From Thermoanaerobaculia bacterium (GTDB lineage: Bacteria; Acidobacteriota; Thermoanaerobaculia; Gp7-AA8), in contig JADGNY010000071.1 in NCBI GenBank assembly GCA_017883235.1, positions 1-35,604 of the forward strand: DNA of 35,604 nt. The letters run 5' to 3'. Below are positions 5,907 to 32,917 of the stretch, piece by piece. The position numbers and the translations under genes are program-made. The first letter of the stretch is position 1. Each line of letters begins with the position of its first letter. The notes under the pieces were generated by a model that saw nothing but the letters and a program-made list of their open reading frames with translations, was not told the DNA's origin and made no database searches.

Positions 5907-6866
5907 CTAGGCGGTTTTTCCGGAGGCCGCTTTCTTCAACAGCTCCGCCACCGGTACGCCAACGCGCTCCAGCGATTCGAAGGAGCCGACGTCGCTCCAG
6001 CCGAAGTTGCCGCGGATGGCGGCGACGCGTGGCGCTTTCTCCATCAACGCGTAGTCGATCGAGATCGACGGCATCGCCTCGTAATGCTCGACACGCCTTC
6101 CCGGATCGCCGCTGGTGACGATGCGGTCGGCCAGCGAGGCGATCTCGGGCGCGGCGGCTTCGAGCGCGCGGCGGAAGACGCTGGCGCGCCAGACGAACAT
6201 CCCGGCGTTCCAGCAGTAGCCGCCGGAACGAAGGTACTCATCGGCGGCTTCCTGTGATGGTTTCTCGCGGAATCCATCGACACGGAGGATGGGAGTCGGG
6301 AGTCGGGAGTCGGGAGTCGGAGCTTGGGAGTCAGAAGCCGTATCTCCGACCCCCGACCCCCGACCCCCGACCCCCGCGAAATCGATCTCGTCGCCCAGTT
6401 GCAGATACCCATATCCCGCATTCGCTTCCGCCGGCTCGATGCCGATCGTGACGAGATAATCGGAAGAGGCGGCGAAATCGTACGCCCGGGCGAGCACGCG
6501 AATGAATTCGTCCTCGTCCGCAATGTAGGAATCGGATGAGAGGACGGCGATGACGGCATCCTCGATGATCGATTCGATGGCGAAGCAACAGACCGCAATG
6601 GCCGGCGCCGTGTTCCGCCGCGCGGGCTCGGTCAATATGTTGACTTCCGGAAGCGTGGGGAGATAGGCCGCGCACTTCGGCGCGTACTGCTCATTGGTCG
6701 AGACGAAGATCGATGACGGTTCCATCAGCCGCGACACCCGGTCGAACGTCATCTCGATCAACGAGACACCGTCGAAGATCCGCAGGAACTGTTTGGGGTT
6801 TTCGTCCGAGGAGAGAGGGCGGAGGCGCGTGCCGGAGCCGCCGGCCAGGATGAGGGCAGTTCTCAC
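5907..6866 (-). CDS. manC: Mannose-1-phosphate guanylyltransferase with repeat-derived insertion
   Basis: The enzyme makes GDP-mannose from mannose-1-phosphate and GTP for glycan synthesis. The 319-residue protein has the nucleotidyltransferase signature [11 protein letters not shown] (9-19), NPKQF (23-27), a [12 protein letters not shown] segment, [10 protein letters not shown] and WNAGMF. The GTG start overlaps the upstream glycosyltransferase stop by 4 nt (GTGA), so the two are coupled. Residues about 165-193 (rich in G, S, P, T and D) are encoded by a heptamer inverted repeat inserted in frame between two conserved strands. Family function is clear; whether the insert is tolerated is not known, though the frame is open throughout. 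Confidence 0.85.
6291..6377. repeat. Heptamer inverted repeat (GGGAGTC type) inside the guanylyltransferase gene
   Basis: The left arm has tandem GGGAGTC units from 6291, and the right arm (about 6354-6377) has tandem GACCCCC units, the complementary sense. The element keeps the reading frame and adds about 29 codons. It is the same family as 6878-6971 and 29154-29228. Confidence 0.8.
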
Positions 6867-8380
6867 GGCGCCCCCGAGGGAGTCGGGAGTCGGGGGTCGG
6901 GGGTCGGAGAGGATCTCGCTTCATCAGGGTTGAGGGTCGCTCCGGTCTCCGACTCCCGACCCCCGACCCCCTGCTTCCGGCCTACGGCAATCAGACTCAA
7001 CCCGCTCTTCGGTCTCGCTCCATCCAGCGCCTTGAGCAAAGGAACCATCCGGTCGAAGATCTTCGACTGCGCGGCCGGCAGCGCGTTTCGTTTGAAGACG
7101 TTCGAGTTCAGCCTCCAGGCCAGCCTGGCAACGCGGTTCTGGTAGACCGCCTCTTCCACCTCGAAGCCGGCCGCCTGCAGCTTCGCCACCAGCTCGTCCT
7201 TGTCGTAGCGGCGCTGATGGCCGATGCCGCGGTCGAGCGCGCCGAAGAGCTCCTTTCCGGCAGGAACGAAGATGATGATCCGTCCGCCGGGAACGAGCAG
7301 CTTGTTGGCGCGGAGCAACGCCGCCGCGTCGTCATTCGTGTGCTCGAGGACGTTGATGCAGAGGATCGTATCGAAGTTGTTGGCGGCCAGATCGAGCGCA
7401 TCGTCAGAATCGAGATCGAGGCGCTCCACCATCATGCCCGGCCGGCGGCGGAAGGCGTTCCGAAGGCGGTCGATGTACGGCGTTTCCTTGTCCGTGGCCA
7501 CGATCAGCTCGCGCCCGTACAGAAAGCGGGTCATCGTCCCCGATCCGGCGCCGGCTTCCAGCACACGCTGGCCGACGTATGGCGCGATGCGCTCCCAGAT
7601 CCACTGGTTGTATCGCTTGAGCGAGCCGCGGCGCCGCAGCGTCTTGTACGTGGCCGGCTCGTTGGAGGGATCGTCGAAGAGACCGTAGCGGAAGATCGTC
7701 CAGATGGCGCTGAAGCCGTCCTTCCAGTTGATCTTCTTTCCCTCCCAGTAATCGCGGCCGTAGTACGAGATCGGGACCTCGTAGATGCGGTAGCCGCGCC
7801 GGGCCACCTTCGCCGTGATCTCCGGCTCGATCCCGAATCGATTCGACTTTAGGTTGATCGACTGGATGACCTCGCGGCGGAAGACTTTGTAGCAGGTCTC
7901 CATGTCGGTGAGGTCGAGGTTGGTGGTGCAGTTGGAGAGGAAGGTCAGCAGGTTGTTGCCGAGGCGGTGCCAGTAGAGCATCACCCGCCGGGGATAGCCT
8001 TCGAAACGCGAGCCGAAGACGACGTCGGCGTGGCCGTCGACGATCGGCTGGATCAGCTTCGGATATTCGTTCGGGTCGTATTCGAGATCGGCATCCTGGA
8101 TGATGACGATGTCCCCAACCGCCTCGGCGATACCGCGCCGGATGGCGGCCCCTTTCCCCATGTTCACCGGCTGAAAGACGTGGCGGATCTCCGGCCACTG
8201 CGCGGCCAGCGCAGCGACGACGCCTGCGGAGCCGTCGGTCGACTTGTCGTCGACGACGATGATCTCCTTGTCGATCGGGACCTCCCTGACGTGGCGCAAC
8301 AGCTCGGCCACGGTGGAACGCTCGTTGTAGCAGGGGACGATCACCGACAGAAGGGGTGGTTTGGAAGGAAGATCCGGCAT
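6863..8380 (-). CDS. Polyprenyl-phosphate-type GT2 glycosyltransferase fused to SAM methyltransferase
   Basis: The 505-residue protein starts at the ATG at 8380 ([20 protein letters not shown]). Residues 1 to about 240 are a GT2 domain of the dolichol-phosphate mannosyltransferase type: [18 protein letters not shown], the DxD motif in QDADLEYDP, and FGSRF. Residues about 285-440 are a class I methyltransferase ([14 protein letters not shown], then [12 protein letters not shown]). There are no C-terminal membrane helices. The last 35 or so residues are translated from a GGGAGTC-type repeat and are unlikely to be structural. Translation is coupled to the guanylyltransferase downstream, so the pair probably activates and transfers mannose or a related sugar. 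The upstream 34 codons of the open frame are rejected because a TACAAT lies between them and the ATG. Confidence 0.85.
6878..6971. repeat. Heptamer inverted repeat forming the 3' end of the glycosyltransferase gene
   Basis: The left arm (about 6879-6910) carries GGGAGTC and GGGGGTC units. The right arm (about 6944-6971) carries the complement. On the minus strand it encodes the Pro/Ser/Gly-rich C-terminal tail and ends just before the stop. Confidence 0.8.
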
Positions 8381-9814: not shown

Positions 9815-11086
9815 GTGAATCAGAAGAAACCAAAACGTAAAACGCCGCTGCGGCAGTTCCTTTCCGCGCTCGGTCCGGGCATCGTTACGGGGGCGGCGGA
9901 CGACGATCCCTCCGGCATTGCGACGTACTCGATCGCCGGCGCGCAATTCGGCACGTCGATGCTCTGGACGGCATTTCTCACCTGGCCGCTCATGGCCGCC
10001 GTCCAGATGATGTGCGCGCGGATCGGCATGGTCTCGGGATACGGACTCGCGCAGGCGCTGCGGCGGAAGTTCCCCCGCCCGGTCGTCGCGCTCCTGGCCC
10101 TGGCGCTGCTCATCGCGAACACCATCAACATCGGCGCGGACCTCCTTGGCATGGCGGACGCGGCGCATATGTTGACCGGTGTGAACTCGCACCTCTACGT
10201 CATCCTCTTCGGTGTCGGCATCAGTGCCGCGACGGTATGGCTGCGGTACGGCCAGATCGCGAACACGCTGAAGTGGCTGGCGCTGTTTCTCTTCGCCTAC
10301 GTCGTGACGGCGTTCATCCTGCGGCCGGCCTGGGCGCCGATTCTTCGCGACGCCATCCGTCCGATCATGCCGCACCAGCCGACCGCCTGGGCAACGTTGG
10401 TGGCCATCCTCGGCACGACCATCAGCCCGTACCTCTTCTTCTGGCAGGCGTCGCAGGAAGTGGAGGAGGAGAAGTTCATCGGCCGGAAGCTGACGATCGA
10501 GCGGATCGGCGCGAGCCCGCGTGAGATCGTCAACCGAAAATTCGACATCGGTTTGGGAACCTTCTTCTCGAACGCCGTGATGTTCTTCATCATCGTGACG
10601 ACGGCGATCACGCTTCATCGCCACGGCATTACGAACATCGAGACCTCGCGGCAAGCCGCCGAGGCACTTCGTCCCCTGGCCGGTTCGGGCTGTTACTTCC
10701 TTTTCACGGCGGGTCTGATCGGGACGGGACTCCTGGCCATTCCGACGCTCTCCGGCTCCGCCGCATACGCGCTTGCCGAGACGTTCGGCTGGCATCAGGG
10801 GCTTGACGAGAAGATCGACAAGGCTCGATCTTTCTACGCCGTCGTCCTGCTGTCGATGGCCGTTGGCATCGGGCTGGACTTCGCGAACATCAATTCTGTT
10901 CGCGCGCTCTACTGGACCGCGGTCATCAACGGAGTGCTCGCGCCCTTCCTCCTGTTGGGGATTCTGCTCGTGGCCAGCGATCGCAAGATCATGCATGGCC
11001 AGCCGAGCTCACGTCTCGGCATTGCCACCGTTGCCGTGACCATGCTGCTCATGTTTGGTGCATGTATAGGGATGTTCGTTTTCTGA
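9815..11086 (+). CDS. NRAMP-related divalent metal transporter, non-canonical motifs
   Basis: The 423-residue integral membrane protein has about 11 helices and the NRAMP fold signature GPGIVTGAADDDPSGIATYSI at its first helix. The GTG at 9815 is chosen for GGAG at 9805-9808 with 6-nt spacing. The canonical metal-binding DPGN of helix 1 is DPSG here (31-34). The helix-6 MPH region is replaced by GTTISPYLFFWQ (about residues 200-211), so the methionine ligand is missing. This marks a diverged NRAMP-related subgroup whose substrate may be magnesium or another hard cation rather than manganese or iron; that is inference. It follows the DUF92 gene by 26 nt. Confidence 0.8.
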   Translation: MNQKKPKRKTPLRQFLSALGPGIVTGAADDDPSGIATYSIAGAQFGTSMLWTAFLTWPLMAAVQMMCARIGMVSGYGLAQALRRKFPRPVVALLALALLIANTINIGADLLGMADAAHMLTGVNSHLYVILFGVGISAATVWLRYGQIANTLKWLALFLFAYVVTAFILRPAWAPILRDAIRPIMPHQPTAWATLVAILGTTISPYLFFWQASQEVEEEKFIGRKLTIERIGASPREIVNRKFDIGLGTFFSNAVMFFIIVTTAITLHRHGITNIETSRQAAEALRPLAGSGCYFLFTAGLIGTGLLAIPTLSGSAAYALAETFGWHQGLDEKIDKARSFYAVVLLSMAVGIGLDFANINSVRALYWTAVINGVLAPFLLLGILLVASDRKIMHGQPSSRLGIATVAVTMLLMFGACIGMFVF

Positions 11087-11088
11087 AG

Positions 11089-11291
11089 GCGCTTCGCGCG
11101 TTGTCTGCGCTGTCGCGCGTTGTCTGCGCGCGGCGCGTAGTCGGTGGTCTACAGTTGCGAGGGGCACGACGTTCGGCGGTAGTTACGGGCTCCGCGCTGT
11201 CGTTCATTCTCTGACCACGCGGCCCGCAGGCCGCAAACAACGCGCGTAAGCGCAGACAACGCGGCGAAGCCGCAGACAACGCGCGAAGCGC
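11089..11291. repeat. Inverted repeat between nramp-like and zinc-ribbon genes
   Basis: The outer arms at 11089-11109 and 11271-11291 are 21-bp perfect complements of the form GCGCTTCGCGCG plus TTGTCTGCG. Further partial copies of the CGCAGACAACGCG unit lie inside each arm. The element fills the gap between convergent genes and may act as a bidirectional terminator. A fragment of the same unit (GCGCTTCGCGCGTTG) occurs at about 12923-12937. Confidence 0.7.
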
Positions 11292-11293
11292 AG

Positions 11294-11491
11294 TCAGTGC
11301 ACGTTACGCAGAGCCGCGCGGAAGACCGGCCCGTTCTGGAGCTCGCCGACGACGCGCTCAAGTCCCCGGTTGCTCTGCAGGGCGACGTGCTGCGCGTACT
11401 CATCGCAGACGGGGCAGAGGCGGCGATTCATGTCGGCATCCGGAACGCGCGTGCCACAGAGCCGGCAGGTTGAATCAGCGTTCAGTGCCAT
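11294..11491 (-). CDS. Small zinc-ribbon protein
   Basis: The 65-residue protein has two CxxC knuckles (Cys9/Cys12 in CRLCG and Cys26/Cys29 in CPVCD) spaced as in a zinc ribbon, followed by a helical tail. The start MALNADSTC at 11491 is chosen over upstream in-frame ATGs because TACAAT (11504-11499) ends 7 nt before it and overlaps the alternative starts. The partner or nucleic acid bound is unknown. Confidence 0.6.
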   Translation of the reverse strand: MALNADSTCRLCGTRVPDADMNRRLCPVCDEYAQHVALQSNRGLERVVGELQNGPVFRAALRNVH

Positions 11492-12918: not shown

Positions 12919-12970
12919 GGCTGCGCTTCGCGCGTTGAAGGCAGTTAATGAGCGCAGCGAATTACAACAG

Positions 12971-13096
12971 GAGCGCTGGCGTCTCGCCGGCTGGCCCGGA
13001 GGCGTCTCGCCTCCGGTCTGGCAAGACTCCACACATTCGCTGGTAACCCTCAGCGGCGAGACCGCCGCTGGGCCAGCCGGCGAGACGCCAGCGCTC
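12971..13096. repeat. Long inverted repeat with 27-bp perfect arms
   Basis: The arms at 12971-12997 and 13070-13096 are perfect reverse complements with core GCGTCTCGCCGGC, and shorter hairpins lie between them. The same arm sequence is found at 32675-32896, so this is a dispersed element. It follows der and may stop transcription. Confidence 0.85.
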
Positions 13097-13371
13097 CGAC
13101 CGTGAACCGCTTAAGTTCAGCCATTGGAGGCAAGTGACAGCCGGGATGCCAGGTCAACACGACCTCACATGTGAGAAATACGGGCTGGCTGACCACCAAT
13201 TCCGGTAAATGCGGCGCACCCCTGGAGTCCAATCATAGACTCGTGGAGTCTGATCATCTGAAAGGCAGCTCACTGCCTCCGGGGAACAGGCACACTTCGC
13301 CCCCCATCACTCCCCGCACTCGACTCCCGCATCACCTGCTATACTCTCCCCGTTCTTGGTAAATTTTTCCG
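13097..13371. other. Intergenic stretch upstream of zapA
   Basis: No gene is supported here. The region holds a short imperfect palindrome (TGGAGTCcaatcaTAGACTCg, about 13226-13245) and the zapA promoter box at its right end. The remaining sequence shows nothing recognisable. Confidence 0.5.
13340..13345 (+). promoter_or_regulatory. Putative zapA -10 element
   Basis: TATACT is close to the consensus TATAAT and lies 26 nt upstream of the zapA ATG. No convincing -35 hexamer is seen 15-18 nt upstream. Confidence 0.5.
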
Positions 13372-13692: not shown

Positions 13693-13911
13693 CGGAGTCC
13701 CTGCAGAGTTCGTGATGAACGATCTAACTCTTGAACCGATGCTTTTCTTACTTCGGGTGCTCGCGTCTTCGCGCCGCGTGCAGGCCGTCGTCCCGAACGG
13801 CTTGTCCGTCCGGGATATGGAGACGGTAGCCTAAACGGCACGGGTAGAGCGCCCACCTGTTTCGGCAGGTTCAAGTAAGAATCCTACACACGGCTCAGGC
13901 GGGGCTCTCCG
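13693..13911 (+). ncRNA. ssrS: Probable 6S RNA
   Basis: The 3' side of zapA lacks a gene but folds as one long rod with nested helices: CGGAG/CTCCG (13693-13697 with 13907-13911), CTTGAACC/GGTTCAAG (13730-13737 with 13868-13875), GGGTGCTC/GAGCGCCC (13755-13762 with 13847-13854), CGTCTTC/GGAGACG (13764-13770 with 13819-13825) and GTCCCG/CGGGAT (13790-13795 with 13811-13816). A closing stem, an internal open region and a long terminal arm are the shape of 6S RNA, which binds RNA polymerase in stationary phase. Position after zapA supports this. Exact ends are uncertain, and about 220 nt is slightly longer than usual. Confidence 0.65.
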
Positions 13912-15540: not shown

Positions 15541-15627
15541 GCTCTTAGCTCTCAGCTCTTGGCTCTTAGCGGGGCGACGAGCTGGGAGCCGGTTCTCCTA
15601 ACAGCTAAGAACTAACAGCTAAGAGCC
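15541..15627. repeat. Heptamer-built inverted repeat (GCTCTTA type)
   Basis: The left arm (15541-15570) is GCTCTTA, GCTCTCA, GCTCTTG, GCTCTTA in tandem. The right arm (about 15596-15627) read in reverse complement is GCTCTTA, GCTGTTA, GTTCTTA, GCTGTTA. It lies between rny and ymdB and ends 8 nt before the ymdB ATG, so it could affect translation of ymdB. Confidence 0.8.
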
Positions 15628-26827: not shown

Positions 26828-26839
26828 CAAAGGCTTTTA

Positions 26840-27207
26840 ACCACAGAGGCACAGCGCGGCGAAGCCGCAACCAAAACGTGGATGCCGGTTAGGGCGCGGC
26901 AAGCACGGCCCCCTCATCCGCCTTCGGCACCTTCTCCCCCAGCTGAAAAGCGCTGGGGGAGAAGGGCTCTCGATGTTAGGAAGGCGCGAGCTCTTTTCGG
27001 GGCGACGTCACGTTTGCGAAGATTTCTTCCAAAACCATGCGGCCCCGAGAACAAGAGCTCGCGCTTCCCTACATCGAGAGTCCTTCTCCCCCAGCGCTTT
27101 TCAGCTGGGGGAGAAGGTGGCGAAGCCGGATGAGGGGGCGGTGCTTGCCATGCCCTTGCCGGCATCCACGTTTTGGTTGCGGCTACGCCGCGCTGTGCCT
27201 CTGTGGT
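26840..27207. repeat. Composite 370-bp palindrome of nested inverted repeats
   Basis: The outer arms (26840-26888 and 27159-27207) are 49 bp with one mismatch. Inside are further paired arms around TTCTCCCCCAGC / GCTGGGGGAGAA units (about 26932-26966 and 27083-27117) and around CTCGATGT / ACATCGAG (about 26970 and 27072). No gene is supported in the gap from 26828 to 27222; the open frames seen there are artefacts of the GC-rich palindrome. The two flanking genes converge on it. Confidence 0.85.
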
Positions 27208-27222
27208 GAAATCATCTTTGAC

Positions 27223-29070
27223 TCACCGCTTGAACGAAATCGACTGCGGGCGCCACGTCTTGACGCGCTTGCCGTCCTTGATTGCCGGCGTAAACCGCAC
27301 CGCTTTCATCGCGCGCGTCGCGGAGTCGTTGAAGCCGAAGCGGGAGTCGCCGCGGAGAATCTTCACGTCGACGACGTCGCCGTTTTCCGAGATCAGGGCC
27401 GAGAGGATCACGATCGCTTCCGCACGCTGCTGCGCGGCAAGAGGCGGATAGTACGGGCGGATCTCCGAGAGAGGCTGGGGAAGCTTATCCAGCTCCGTCA
27501 CGTCGACGACGTCCCCCTCGTGGATCGTGGCGACGGGAGGTTGCGTAAGCGCCGGTGCGGCGAGGGCAGGTTGCGGCTGTGGCGGGACGACCGGCGCCTG
27601 CTGGGCGACGGTCTGCGTCGGCGGCTGATTCTCCGGCCGCGAATTCACGCGCCGCTGGTCGAGCGCGGCGGCGGAGCCGCGATCGTCGATCTGCTTCTGC
27701 GGTTGCGGCGGCGTGATCAGGTTGGCCGTCTGCACAGGGGCATTCTTCGACTGCTCCTGCTTGAGCTTCTTGTTCATGTCCGCCTGCAGCTTCATCATCT
27801 CTTCCTGCATCTTCTGCTCAACCGCGACCTCGAAGGCCTTCTTCTGCGCGGCGGGGTCGAGCGGGGCCGTGCTGGTTTGCGGCGCGGCGGCGATGACCGG
27901 ATGGGAGATGACGACGTTCGGCTTCGGCGGGGGAGTGGCGGCATGCAGCACCGGCGCGGCCGGTTTCGGCTTGAACATGAAGAACGCGCCGGCGCCAACC
28001 GCGAGCACGACCACGGCGGCAGTGGCATACAGCGGCATGCGGCTCTTCGCCGGCGCCGGCGCCGCTTCGACCTCGGCGGCTATCGCCACCGGCGCGTACG
28101 CCGCGACATTGACCTTCGACTCCCTCTCGCGGTCCAGCGATTCCGCTTCCATCTCTTTCTTCAGAAGGTTGCTGAGGTAGAAGGCGAGATTGAACGTCGA
28201 CGCCGAGTAGTTCCCTCCGTGCACGAGCGACGAGAGCACCTGCTTCATTTCGCCGATCGATGCATAGCGGGCATTGGGATCGATGGCCAGCGATTTCTCG
28301 AGGAGGGCGCGAATATCATCGGGGATCGGTTGCCCGGAGGATGTCTTCGCCGCGCGGATCGTCTGCGCGAACGCGCTGCCGGTCATCGCGTCCGGCGGCT
28401 CGTTGCCGGTGACGAGGAGGTAGAGAACCGCGCCGAGCGAGTAGACATCGGTCGTCTTCGAGACCTCGGCCGAGGCACGGTACTCCGCAGCGAAATACCT
28501 GCCCAGCTCCGCGGCTACCTTCGAATCGGACATCGAGGCGATGAGACCTTTTCCGATCTGCTGGCCGGCCACGCGGATCTCGCCTTCATCAGTGATCCAG
28601 ACGAACTGCGGGATCAGCGCGCCGTGTGCGAGACGATTGCCGAGGTAACGGAGATCGGCCGTCGTCGACAGAGAGAGCGCGATCTTTTCGGCGATGACGA
28701 TGGCCTGATCGATCGGTATCGGATTCGCGGTGACGCCCGCGCCGCCGCGGGCGCGATCGACGATATGCCGCAGCGAGCGTCCGCCCGAATACTCGTGCGC
28801 GATGAAGGGGATGCCGTTGGCGACGTCGATGGTCTGATCTTTGGCGAAGGTCGTCCCGCTCAGCAGTGGAACAAGCTGGTTGGTCTCGCCCGCGCTTTGA
28901 ACCAGAGCCGCGCGATTGCCGCCCGACAGACGCCGGACCGCCATGATCGGACCGAGTTGCCCACCGTCGACGCGCCCCGCGCGCCAGAGATCACCGAGAG
29001 CATCGGTTTCTAATTTCTTGAAGAGGATGAACGGACCGAACTGTTCGTACGGACGGTTTTTCGCAGACAT
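27223..29070 (-). CDS. Pseudokinase with transmembrane helix and TonB C-terminal domain
   Basis: The 615-residue protein has a kinase-like domain (about 10-285), a membrane helix (346-366), a long Gln/Pro-rich linker with a charged helix (about 395-440), and a TonB C-terminal domain (about 535-615; NGDVVDVKILRG, then AMKAVRFTPAIKDGKRV). Kinase fold marks include TTDVYSLGAVLYLLVTG and a C-lobe ending YASIGEM. The catalytic residues are missing: the VAIK Lys is Arg (AVRRL), HRD is replaced by HGALIPQF, and DFG by VAGQ. It therefore probably senses or binds rather than phosphorylates, linking cytoplasm to periplasm. The ATG at 29070 is chosen; the upstream open frame is repeat DNA. Confidence 0.82.
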   Translation of the reverse strand: MSAKNRPYEQFGPFILFKKLETDALGDLWRAGRVDGGQLGPIMAVRRLSGGNRAALVQSAGETNQLVPLLSGTTFAKDQTIDVANGIPFIAHEYSGGRSLRHIVDRARGGAGVTANPIPIDQAIVIAEKIALSLSTTADLRYLGNRLAHGALIPQFVWITDEGEIRVAGQQIGKGLIASMSDSKVAAELGRYFAAEYRASAEVSKTTDVYSLGAVLYLLVTGNEPPDAMTGSAFAQTIRAAKTSSGQPIPDDIRALLEKSLAIDPNARYASIGEMKQVLSSLVHGGNYSASTFNLAFYLSNLLKKEMEAESLDRERESKVNVAAYAPVAIAAEVEAAPAPAKSRMPLYATAAVVVLAVGAGAFFMFKPKPAAPVLHAATPPPKPNVVISHPVIAAAPQTSTAPLDPAAQKKAFEVAVEQKMQEEMMKLQADMNKKLKQEQSKNAPVQTANLITPPQPQKQIDDRGSAAALDQRRVNSRPENQPPTQTVAQQAPVVPPQPQPALAAPALTQPPVATIHEGDVVDVTELDKLPQPLSEIRPYYPPLAAQQRAEAIVILSALISENGDVVDVKILRGDSRFGFNDSATRAMKAVRFTPAIKDGKRVKTWRPQSISFKR

Positions 29071-29153: not shown

Positions 29154-29228
29154 ACGGGGGTCGGGAGTCGGGGGTCGGAAAAACACGGACGGAGCTCCGA
29201 CCCCCGACTCCCGGCCCCCGACTCCCGT
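29154..29228. repeat. Heptamer inverted repeat (GGGGGTC/GGGAGTC type)
   Basis: The left arm (29154-29178) carries GGGGGTC and GGGAGTC units. The right arm (29197-29228) is complementary. It lies between mltG, whose stop begins at its right edge, and the pseudokinase gene, both on the minus strand. Confidence 0.8.
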
Positions 29229-30289
29229 TATTTAGCTTTCTGATCCCGGTACCACTGAACCTGCCAGATCTGCACGTTCCGGTCGTGGTCGGCCATGTTC
29301 GTGGCAAAGGCGTGCGTCCCGTCGTGTTTGGCGACGAAGTAGAGGAAGTCGCTCTTCGACGGCGCCGCCGCGGCCTGTAGCGAAGCCAGGCCGGGATTGG
29401 CGATCGGGCCCGGCGGCAGGCCGTGGAAACGATAGGTGTTGTAAGGCGAGTCGATCTGCAGGTCGGCTTTGCGGATGTTGCCGTCCCAGCGCCCGGCCAG
29501 TTTCAGCGCGTAGATCACCGTCGGGTCGGCGCCGAGGAGCATCTTGAGGTTGATGCGATTCATGTAGACCGACGCCACCAGCGGCCGCTCCCGCGGCATG
29601 CGCGCCTCGGTCTCGACGATCGAGGCCAGCGTCACGGTCTGATGGAGATTCAGGCCGGTGGTGATGTAGTTCATCTCACCGCCGAAGTGCTTGCGGAAGT
29701 TCGCCACCATCGCCTGAATGATGGCCCGCGGCGGCGTGCCGGGATCGAATTTGTAGGTGTCGGGGAAAAGATACCCCTCGAGCGTCTTCGCCTCGGGGGC
29801 GATATCGCGGATCAGTTCCGGATTGACGGTGAGCCTGTCCCACTCCGCGTCGCGGCCGAATCCCTCCTGCACAAAAATGTGTGCAACGGCGAAGCGGTCC
29901 AGCCCTTCGCGGACCGTGACGCTCTTGGCGTTGACGTCGCCGCGGATCAACTTGTCGAGGACTTCCTCCGCCGTCATCGGTTTGGAGAACTCGTAGATGC
30001 CTGCCTTGATCCTGTCGTTGTAACGGACGACCTTCATGTAGATCAGCGGGAAGTATTCATCCCGGATGATCCCTTCGGCTTCGAGGTGCTTGAGGATCGC
30101 GGCGGTGCGGAGGCCGTGATGGACTTCGACGTCTTTGAACGGTTGCGTGTAGTTCTTGTACGGCGAGCGCATGGCCCGCAGGAAGAACCAGCCGCCGCCG
30201 ACGCCGAGGATGACGGCAAAGATGCCGACGGTCATCAGCGAGTGCAGCAGCTTGCGGCAGCCGCCGCGGCCGCGCGCGCGCCGGGCTAT
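29228..30289 (-). CDS. mltG: Endolytic murein transglycosylase MltG
   Basis: MltG cuts nascent peptidoglycan strands at the inner membrane. It has one N-terminal membrane helix (MTVGIFAVILGVGGGWFF), then a LysM-like part, then a YceG domain with LEGYLFPDTYKF, catalytic ASIVETEARMP, LGADPTVIYAL and SPYNTYRFHGLPPGPIANPG. No ATG, GTG or TTG exists in frame between the ruvX end and an ATG at 30235. A perfect AGGAGG (30300-30295) lies 5 nt before an ATA at 30289 that overlaps the ruvX stop as ATAG. I annotate 353 residues from this ATA tentatively; from 30235 the protein has 335. Function is certain, the start is not. Confidence 0.9.
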   Translation of the reverse strand: MARRARGRGGCRKLLHSLMTVGIFAVILGVGGGWFFLRAMRSPYKNYTQPFKDVEVHHGLRTAAILKHLEAEGIIRDEYFPLIYMKVVRYNDRIKAGIYEFSKPMTAEEVLDKLIRGDVNAKSVTVREGLDRFAVAHIFVQEGFGRDAEWDRLTVNPELIRDIAPEAKTLEGYLFPDTYKFDPGTPPRAIIQAMVANFRKHFGGEMNYITTGLNLHQTVTLASIVETEARMPRERPLVASVYMNRINLKMLLGADPTVIYALKLAGRWDGNIRKADLQIDSPYNTYRFHGLPPGPIANPGLASLQAAAAPSKSDFLYFVAKHDGTHAFATNMADHDRNVQIWQVQWYRDQKAK

Positions 30290-30716: not shown

Positions 30717-30885
30717 GGTTGTCGGTTATCGGTTGTCGGTTGTCGAGTTGACTCGGTGTCGGGTTGCGTACAATGTGGATACCGGTCCGCGGGTTGCAAC
30801 GTTGCTCGGTTTGCGCGGGCAACCCGACAACTGACAACCGATAACCGACAACGCGCGATAGCGCAAGCAACCGATAACCGACAAC
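30717..30885. repeat. Heptamer-built inverted repeat (GGTTATC/GGTTGTC type)
   Basis: The left arm (30717-30745) is GGTTGTC, GGTTATC, GGTTGTC, GGTTGTC. The right arms (about 30824-30852 and 30868-30885) are the reverse complement, the second being a partial extra copy. It fills the gap between divergent ruvX and pilT and is the same family as 885-962. Confidence 0.8.
30769..30774 (+). promoter_or_regulatory. Possible pilT -10 element within the repeat
   Basis: TACAAT at 30769-30774 with TTGACT at 30748-30753 (15-bp spacer) is the only promoter-like pair upstream of pilT. The leader would be about 120 nt and would include the right repeat arms. Confidence 0.35.
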
Positions 30886-32647: not shown

Positions 32648-32674
32648 GGGGCCCGGGTCGCAGGGCGGTTTTTC

Positions 32675-32896
32675 GGAGCGCTGGCGTCTCGCCGGCTGGC
32701 CCGGCGTGCGTCCCGCCGCCGGGTTACCGCAAATGTTTGGAGTCTTGCCGGTCGGGCGGCGGTGGTTTCCGGAGCGCTGACGTCTCGCCGGCTGGCCCGT
32801 GGGCGTCTCGCCCCCGAACCGTCAAGACTCCCAACATTCGCGGGTAACCCGGCGGCGGGACGCACGCCGGGCCAGCCGGCGAGACGCCAGCGCTCC
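32675..32896. repeat. Nested long inverted repeat with 54-bp perfect outer arms
   Basis: The arms at 32675-32728 and 32843-32896 are perfect complements and continue imperfectly inward for about 30 bp more. A third partial copy of the arm start lies inside at about 32770-32799. The arm shares its first 27 bp or so with the element at 12971-13096. Confidence 0.88.
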
Positions 32897-32917
32897 GTTT
32901 CGCTATTCAATTTAACG

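Follow-up and report, generated by a model that had tools for sequence, protein, structure and literature searches.

A heptamer hairpin inserted in frame in manC

The manC gene of a soil Acidobacterium contains, in frame, a hairpin of tandem G-rich heptamers, which is best explained as one copy of a palindromic repeat family abundant in the genus. The gene lies on contig JADGNY010000071.1 of a Thermoanaerobaculia assembly (GCA_017883235.1), in a stretch of 35,604 nucleotides that was analysed as a whole and is called the window here. Three genomes of the genus were available in all, each a draft of many contigs: that of the window, G000, and those of its congeners, G001 and G002.

The initial annotation had placed the hairpin in frame in a mannose-1-phosphate guanylyltransferase, and this is borne out. 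The product has the expected domain (Table 1), and the frame stays open across the element, whose sense strand (6291-6377) has a predicted fold of -72.8 kcal/mol (z = -9.0 against 200 dinucleotide shuffles). There are 14 occurrences of the two-unit motif GGGNGTCGGGNGTCGG in the window, spread over three hairpins; 100 dinucleotide shuffles gave none.

Table 1 The manC gene, its hairpin and the related hairpins of the window.
Feature	Position	Strand	Basis
Mannose-1-phosphate guanylyltransferase (ManC-type) ORF, host of the insert, 319 aa	5907..6866	-	Pfam NTP_transferase, E 4e-36; PDB 2x5s
Heptamer hairpin element, in frame, net gain of 28 codons	6291..6376		Alignment of relatives; fold z -9.0
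G-rich arm, GGGAGTC x4	6291..6320	+	Repeat units in the sequence
Hairpin loop, 25 nt, without a long match to other sampled loops	6321..6345		Loop comparison
C-rich arm on the plus strand (CCGACCC units), GGGGGTC x4 on the minus strand	6346..6376	-	Repeat units
Glycosyltransferase/methyltransferase gene upstream of manC (ORF up to 8482), C-terminus extended in frame by the second hairpin	6863..8344	-	Pfam; gene calls
Second hairpin, same type as that of manC, arms 6878-6907 and 6949-6971, translated	6878..6971		In-frame reading
Third hairpin, same type, intergenic, arms 29155-29178 and 29197-29227, abutting the stop end of ORF 29228-30235	29155..29227		Repeat listing

Aligning ManC with its relatives confirmed the insertion. 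The distance between the conserved GYGYL and FREKP segments is 48 residues in the window protein and 20 in all 15 same-family loci, a reading in which G008 gave a partial match only and G014 none; among 109 aligned relative loci, some genomes being counted twice, it never exceeds 42. A loop common to all ManC proteins is ruled out by the same-family distances. The net gain is 28 codons (84 nt), slightly below the figure of about 29 first proposed, and the loop is as new relative to family relatives as the arms. A search for genomes lacking the insert found that both congeners do so; it is present only in G000, so that the copy came in, or was retained, only in that lineage.

The insert could also be mapped on a ManC structure. 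The mannose-1-phosphate guanylyltransferase 2x5s aligns on either side of it (query residues 3-162 and 194-302 with chain residues 3-159 and 163-270) and has three residues where the window protein has 31. An AlphaFold2 model made from an alignment of 43 sequences (mean pLDDT 92.3, pTM 0.90) falls below a pLDDT of 50 at residues 168-177 and 179-185, between the strands 153-160 and 193-201. The insert would thus emerge from a turn between two β-strands, where it is predicted to be disordered; judging from the model, we infer that the enzyme keeps its fold and carries the insert as a disordered loop. Among 43 ManC-type proteins, the window protein included, 34 columns are invariant. In the pairwise comparison with G001, dN is 0.166 and dS 1.3, without excess divergence of G000, and the amino-acid identity between G000 and G002 (0.739) is similar to that between G001 and G002 (0.746). 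This substitution pattern speaks against a pseudogene, a reading that we reject. Since the insert leaves the predicted fold intact, the product is probably active and the element probably neutral or mildly costly.

The second hairpin of the window lengthens the C-terminus of the upstream glycosyltransferase, for which seven relatives were compared. The five from outside the genus stop 1-20 residues past a GRK motif (GKK in one) and that of G001 stops 23 residues past it; none of these six has heptamer peptides. The G002 protein has a 27-residue tail with GVGSGGLGVG.

Several other repeats occur in the window. Further heptamer types (GGTTATC/GGTTGTC; GCTCTTA/CTAACAG-like) stand in facing pairs at 885-962, 15541-15626 and 30717-30852. 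A separate, unrelated palindromic repeat with GGAGCGCTGGCGTCTCGCCGGCTGGCC arms is found at 12970-13098 and 32674-32897; its arms have 137 and 144 matches genome-wide with at most two mismatches, and a reversed control has none. A large inverted repeat at 26836-27211, with 148-nt arms that are 92% complementary and lie 80 nt apart, occupies the spacer beside ORF 27223-29070 and has CTTCTCCCCCAGC...GCTGGGGGAGAAG cores. At 11083-11297, between two genes, imperfect 18-19-nt tandem repeats (GCGCTTCGCGCGTTGTCT) are arranged in inverted fashion. In a search of the whole window against Rfam at gathering score, the sole match was a 6S RNA gene at 13695-13909 (RF00013, 81 bits); the manC hairpin has no match there, and a known RNA family is rejected on that basis.

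A palindromic repeat family of the genus

We sampled 61 stretches of G000, 1.06 of 6.92 Mb, which cover 158 of the 214 exact matches of our search pattern; they were mostly picked around known copies, so the numbers below are counts and not densities. Genes were called with a codon-usage script. In ten stretches chosen blind to hits (166 kb) there are 10 arrays of period 7 against 0-2 for each of the periods 4-6 and 8-12, and in the whole element-centred sample (1.06 Mb) 175 against 0-13 for other periods. Pairing of arrays gave 84 hairpin rows, 57 of them of TCGGGNG type; one locus is counted twice (overlap of L130 and L131), two rows of L144 overlap, and the third hairpin of the window is missed.

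The plan that recurs is CGGGNGT four times, an inner end CGGAG, a loop and then the mirror image. Loops measure 9-45 nt in 59 of the 63 strict elements of G000, and whole elements are mostly about 60-130 nt long. The dominant units are GGGAGTC and GGGGGTC, of which GGGAGTC alone fits the loose form GGGANTN. In G000, 39 of the 63 left arms have four complete units, as do 39 of the 63 on the right; the counts for left and right arms are 8 and 11 of 25 in G001, and 6 and 8 of 19 in G002. In these two congeners, arms with two or three units are at least as frequent as those with four.

The family is narrowly distributed. With overlapping starts counted, the hairpin pattern was found in 4 of 396 Acidobacteriota genomes, a set that includes G000 and omits G001 and G017: 111 times in G000, 43 in G002, once in G010 and twice in G382. 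A three-unit pattern, searched in 60 genomes including G000, matched 214 times there, 123 times in G002, 57 in G001, 25 in G017, and once each in G010 and G033. The viral_contigs collection held no exact match of the hairpin pattern with loops of 6-36 nt, and within that range carriage by phages is not borne out.

Copies inside genes and their tolerance

The element had initially been described as intergenic outside manC, which does not hold: besides the translated copy at 6878-6971, 15 of the 63 strict G000 hairpins lie inside ORFs, that is, with at least 60 nt of one called ORF on either side. In the sampled stretches of the congeners the figures are 11 of 25 (G001) and 3 of 19 (G002). When all heptamer types are taken together, 18 ORFs of G000 enclose 19 of the 84 rows. 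Copies in genes are nonetheless fewer than expected from the coding share, 0.79 in the G000 stretches.

Many host genes are conserved. By Pfam and NCBIfam, those of G000 include MutS, NadD, NuoG, DnaE (a fragment at a contig end), threonine synthase, pyruvate dehydrogenase E1, an aconitase/isopropylmalate dehydratase fusion, a decarboxylase, an MFS transporter and a sulfatase, among others; 2 of 20 host proteins have no Pfam match. Among the hosts in the congeners are LpxB, an Lhr-type helicase, a UvrA-like protein and apolipoprotein N-acyltransferase, with 2 of 10 unmatched. In the NadD insert of G000 (L121, 9911-10076), a GGTTGTC-type array is nested inside the loop of a TCGGGGG-type hairpin.

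The units GGGAGTC, GGGGGTC and GGGTGTC, and the G002 form GTGGGGA, are free of stop codons in all frames of both strands. Because seven is not a multiple of three, each arm encodes the same heptapeptide cycle (GSRESGV, DSRLPTP) in any phase, and because the 7-nt unit cycles through all frames and the heptamer holds no stop in any, the arms are open in all six. A fraction of 0.504 of all heptamers is likewise stop-free in six frames, so the property is helpful and not special. Among 27 copies wholly or nearly wholly within ORFs, 11, 10 and 6 start at codon phase 0, 1 and 2, respectively.

We consider it probable that a selfish or neutral palindromic repeat enters genes, and that frame and the tolerance of a floppy loop decide which copies survive. 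A copy would persist where its net length change is a multiple of three, where its arms are stop-free in all six frames, and where the protein tolerates a flexible segment rich in Gly, Ser, Pro and Arg.

Shared sites and renewal of the arms

Six genes have in-frame heptamer sequence at a site common to two or three of the species. The MutS proteins of the three genus members each carry an insert, with 32, 34 and 66 residues between anchors; seven other family genomes align without one, and the five that keep both anchors have 9-12 residues. The NuoG anchors are 49, 46 and 63 residues apart in the genus and 20-23 in eight other family genomes. In NadD a heptamer peptide is found at one site in all three members, with 64 residues between anchors in G000 and 38 in both G001 and G002, against 29-39 in seven other family genomes; as this loop varies in the family, G000 alone shows a clear net gain. 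G000 and G001 share an in-frame copy in pyruvate dehydrogenase E1 and in a TonB-domain gene. At the site of the threonine synthase copy, G002 has a segment of its own, perhaps a decayed copy.

These shared sites bear on whether the manC hairpin could be an assembly artefact or mark a pseudogene. The assembly is a draft of 246 contigs and the ManC insert is seen in one genome only; the same sites are nevertheless occupied in frame across species, the manC frame is intact and its substitution pattern is normal, and such an origin is hardly credible.

At these distances synonymous sites, as judged from ManC, are close to saturation, yet at the shared sites every species has kept its heptamers in the arms; the loops can be aligned only with difficulty. 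The type of heptamer also differs: arms of G002 are of GTGGGGA type in MutS, in the L141 gene and in the outer part of NuoG, and those of G000 and G001 of GTCGGGA type. The inner NuoG units of G002 and its NadD arms are still of GTCGGGA type. Since the arms remain heptameric as loops diverge, and since their type differs in G002, we infer that they are renewed and not merely inherited. Heptamer gain and loss after insertion would provide the renewal.

Arms that stay heptameric over such distances could instead point to a role at the level of DNA or RNA, with coding incidental: four G-runs in an arm might form a G-quadruplex, or the stem might slow ribosomes or protect mRNA. The modal four units per arm in G000, as in the repeats of Xanthomonas, are also consistent with it. 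Both congeners, however, have a manC without the hairpin, and we regard retention for such a role as improbable.

Clues to the mode of spread

Copies of a MITE share an interior, as do copies of the Rickettsia palindromic elements (RPEs), which have a family consensus that includes it. We compared loops of at least 12 nt, 100 of those of the 107 strict elements in G000, G001 and G002. No interior of the RPE kind was found among them, and the manC-type element differs from MITEs in the same respect. One pair of heptamer arrays aside, the longest shared words are 13 nt; once heptamer fragments are masked, the longest word tested, 12 nt, is shared by a single pair. Even so, loops have short words in common at about two to three times the rate of shuffled ones (a 9-nt word in 41 pairs against 13.4). 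The missing common loop argues against a simply copied element, which should show one.

In the flanks, no convincing target duplication was found at a fixed offset, the best of 108 offset tests giving 5 of 107 elements against 1.2. Flank matches of at least 4 nt occur in 39 of 107 elements against 28.9 expected, a value reached by 16 of 1000 shuffles, and those of at least 5 nt in 6 of 107 against about 6.9. Insertion into palindromic targets is not borne out; flank complementarity is not clearly above shuffles (z from -2.3 to 1.8 at 15 positions).

As to machinery, the search covered Y1 transposases and reverse transcriptases. Flanks of up to about 1.5 kb around nine Y1 transposase loci and three reverse-transcriptase loci of the genome contain no array of the manC type; one unrelated AGCGCGC run lies near Y1 loci. 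Neither REP elements driven by a RAYT nor a neighbouring reverse transcriptase as the driver is borne out by these loci.

Mobilization in trans by a transposase, as for a classical MITE or REP element, would fit a hairpin of high copy number whose abundance is limited to one genus (4 of 396 genomes), in a genome with nine Y1 matches, and also the slightly raised numbers of 4-nt flank matches and of short words common to loops. The lack of a convincing fixed-offset duplication and of a long common interior, together with the Y1 surroundings free of such arrays, counts against this origin and leaves it unlikely.

The two arms of a hairpin do not behave as copies of each other. In G000 the two arms have the same variable base N in 61 of 207 unit pairs (0.295), below the shuffled 0.423 (z -4.1); no significant departure is seen in G002 (z -1.1) or G001 (z 0.5). 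Between neighbours within an arm the agreement exceeds chance, with z of 1.9 in G000, 3.1 in G002 and 4.9 in G001. With agreement below chance in G000 and at chance in the congeners, we reject the notion that the arms are inverted copies of each other. In the L141 gene, which is unassigned, about 200 bp of coding DNA lies between the arms in all three species. Relatives without arms have this DNA too, with other sequence of similar length where the arms stand. A second candidate for arms flanking host DNA is L120 (6798-6970), where the 110 nt between the arms overlap a called gene start and may be coding.

Such observations could mean that the hairpin is not the travelling unit at all, and that its arms are separately written arrays, made by slippage, end-addition or a template switch from other arrays, which face each other across whatever DNA lies between. 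The absence of a long sequence common to the 100 loops, the low agreement between arms of G000 beside the high agreement within arms, the host DNA enclosed in the L141 gene and the change of heptamer type in G002 all argue for this reading. So does polarity: over all types (ten stand in facing pairs across the genome sample, including several close variants) the purine-rich arm leads 81 of the 84 rows, and 78 have the G-rich arm first. Yet the manC loop is itself new relative to the family; the arms of G000 have a central length of four units and a recurrent inner end, CGGAG/CTCCG, as in a defined unit; and single arrays of TCGGGNG type number 9 against 57 pairs, weaker arms being allowed in pairs. 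Moreover, between-arm agreement does not depart significantly in G002 or G001, and the low value in G000 could also result from loss or poor assembly of perfect palindromes. The GTCGGGA-type units kept in NuoG and NadD of G002 and the excess of short words common to loops count against it as well. Separate writing of the arms, which overlaps with the main reading of a palindromic repeat, has a minor though appreciable chance of being right.

More speculatively, and with a low chance in our estimate, the genus might have a heptamer-writing activity, distinct from hairpin transposition, that adds about four G-rich heptamers independently to DNA ends or strands, which then meet head to head like fused telomeres, and that later rewrites arrays already placed. 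It would account for the differing loops, the arms around intact host DNA and the low arm agreement of G000, as well as for the purine-rich-first polarity over several types and the type changes in one species. As the favoured heptamer is stop-free in any frame, it would seed disordered segments in essential proteins.

For the palindromic repeat favoured here, the most likely route of spread would be a non-autonomous, selfish process that relies on putative machinery, with renewal of the arms after insertion.

Relation to known repeats

The closest architectural parallel is in Xanthomonas, where G-rich GGGAATC heptamers show a preference for four units, 70 and 75 convergent heptamer pairs occur in two genomes, 7-11% of the heptamer repeats are intragenic, and repeat oligonucleotides form G-quadruplexes in vitro (Rehm et al. 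2015, PMC4692102). Going by these descriptions, the present element is alike in its tandem G-rich heptamers, its modal four units (in G000) and its convergent pairs, the G-rich arm leading in all 57 TCGGGNG-type hairpins of the G000 sample; it differs in its units, GGGAGTC and GGGGGTC instead of GGGAATC, and belongs to another phylum. The portions of the Xanthomonas account drawn on here do not mention conserved enzymes with in-frame inserts, sites left empty or one heptamer type giving way to another.

The RPEs are the functional parallel. They are palindromes of 105-146 bp (about 150 elsewhere) with a conserved peptide, found in frame in conserved Rickettsia genes and dispersed in spacers, and belong with the protein-coding palindromes of Rickettsia and Wolbachia; a guanylate kinase with an RPE insert is active, with changed substrate affinity (PMC2229807, PMC10969869). 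On the descriptions given there, our element likewise is a palindrome found in frame in conserved protein genes and in spacers; it is unlike an RPE in its arms made of heptamer arrays, its size of mostly about 60-130 nt, its differing loops and its high-GC Acidobacteriota host. The likeness to RPEs drawn in the initial annotation therefore stands, the insert being in frame, absent from the close relatives compared and in a gene that looks functional; the suggestion that a heptamer-built version in an unrelated high-GC bacterium would be a new case stands less firmly, in view of the convergent hairpins of Xanthomonas (PMC4692102, as far as described there). It seems fair to say that the element works like an RPE and has the architecture of the Xanthomonas convergent repeats.

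Two further groups are more distant. The TAACTGA heptamer repeats of Beggiatoaceae and Cyanobacteria (MacGregor 2015, PMC4679880) are similar, as described, in forming dispersed arrays of few heptamers restricted to some lineages. They differ in being almost all direct and not paired into hairpins (169 direct sets and one indirect in the main genome), in having stops in all frames of one strand, and in lying mostly just upstream of start codons (PMC4679880). ERIC, Correia and YPAL are MITEs fused in frame with genes (PMC2229807, PMC10969869). The manC-type element resembles these, on the same partial accounts, in being a small non-autonomous hairpin that is sometimes translated; several MITEs have a target duplication, of which no convincing case at a fixed offset was seen in our element. 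In the open text of PubMed Central we found no report of heptamer hairpins or in-frame palindromic repeats in Acidobacteria, and in open papers none of heptamer-built palindromes in frame in conserved genes.

Altogether, manC and its counterparts add another, well separated example of conserved genes with dispersed palindromes in frame, which the reviews, in the parts covered, describe chiefly from Rickettsia. The case joins two literatures that are separate in the papers covered, on heptamer simple-sequence repeats and on protein-coding palindromes. Its simple unit allows one to ask what makes an insert tolerable, and since some sites are common to the three congeners and others are not, one can test in genes such as mutS, nuoG and manC how inserts arise, are renewed and disappear. 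In this genus, a repeated DNA element seems to add floppy loops to proteins.
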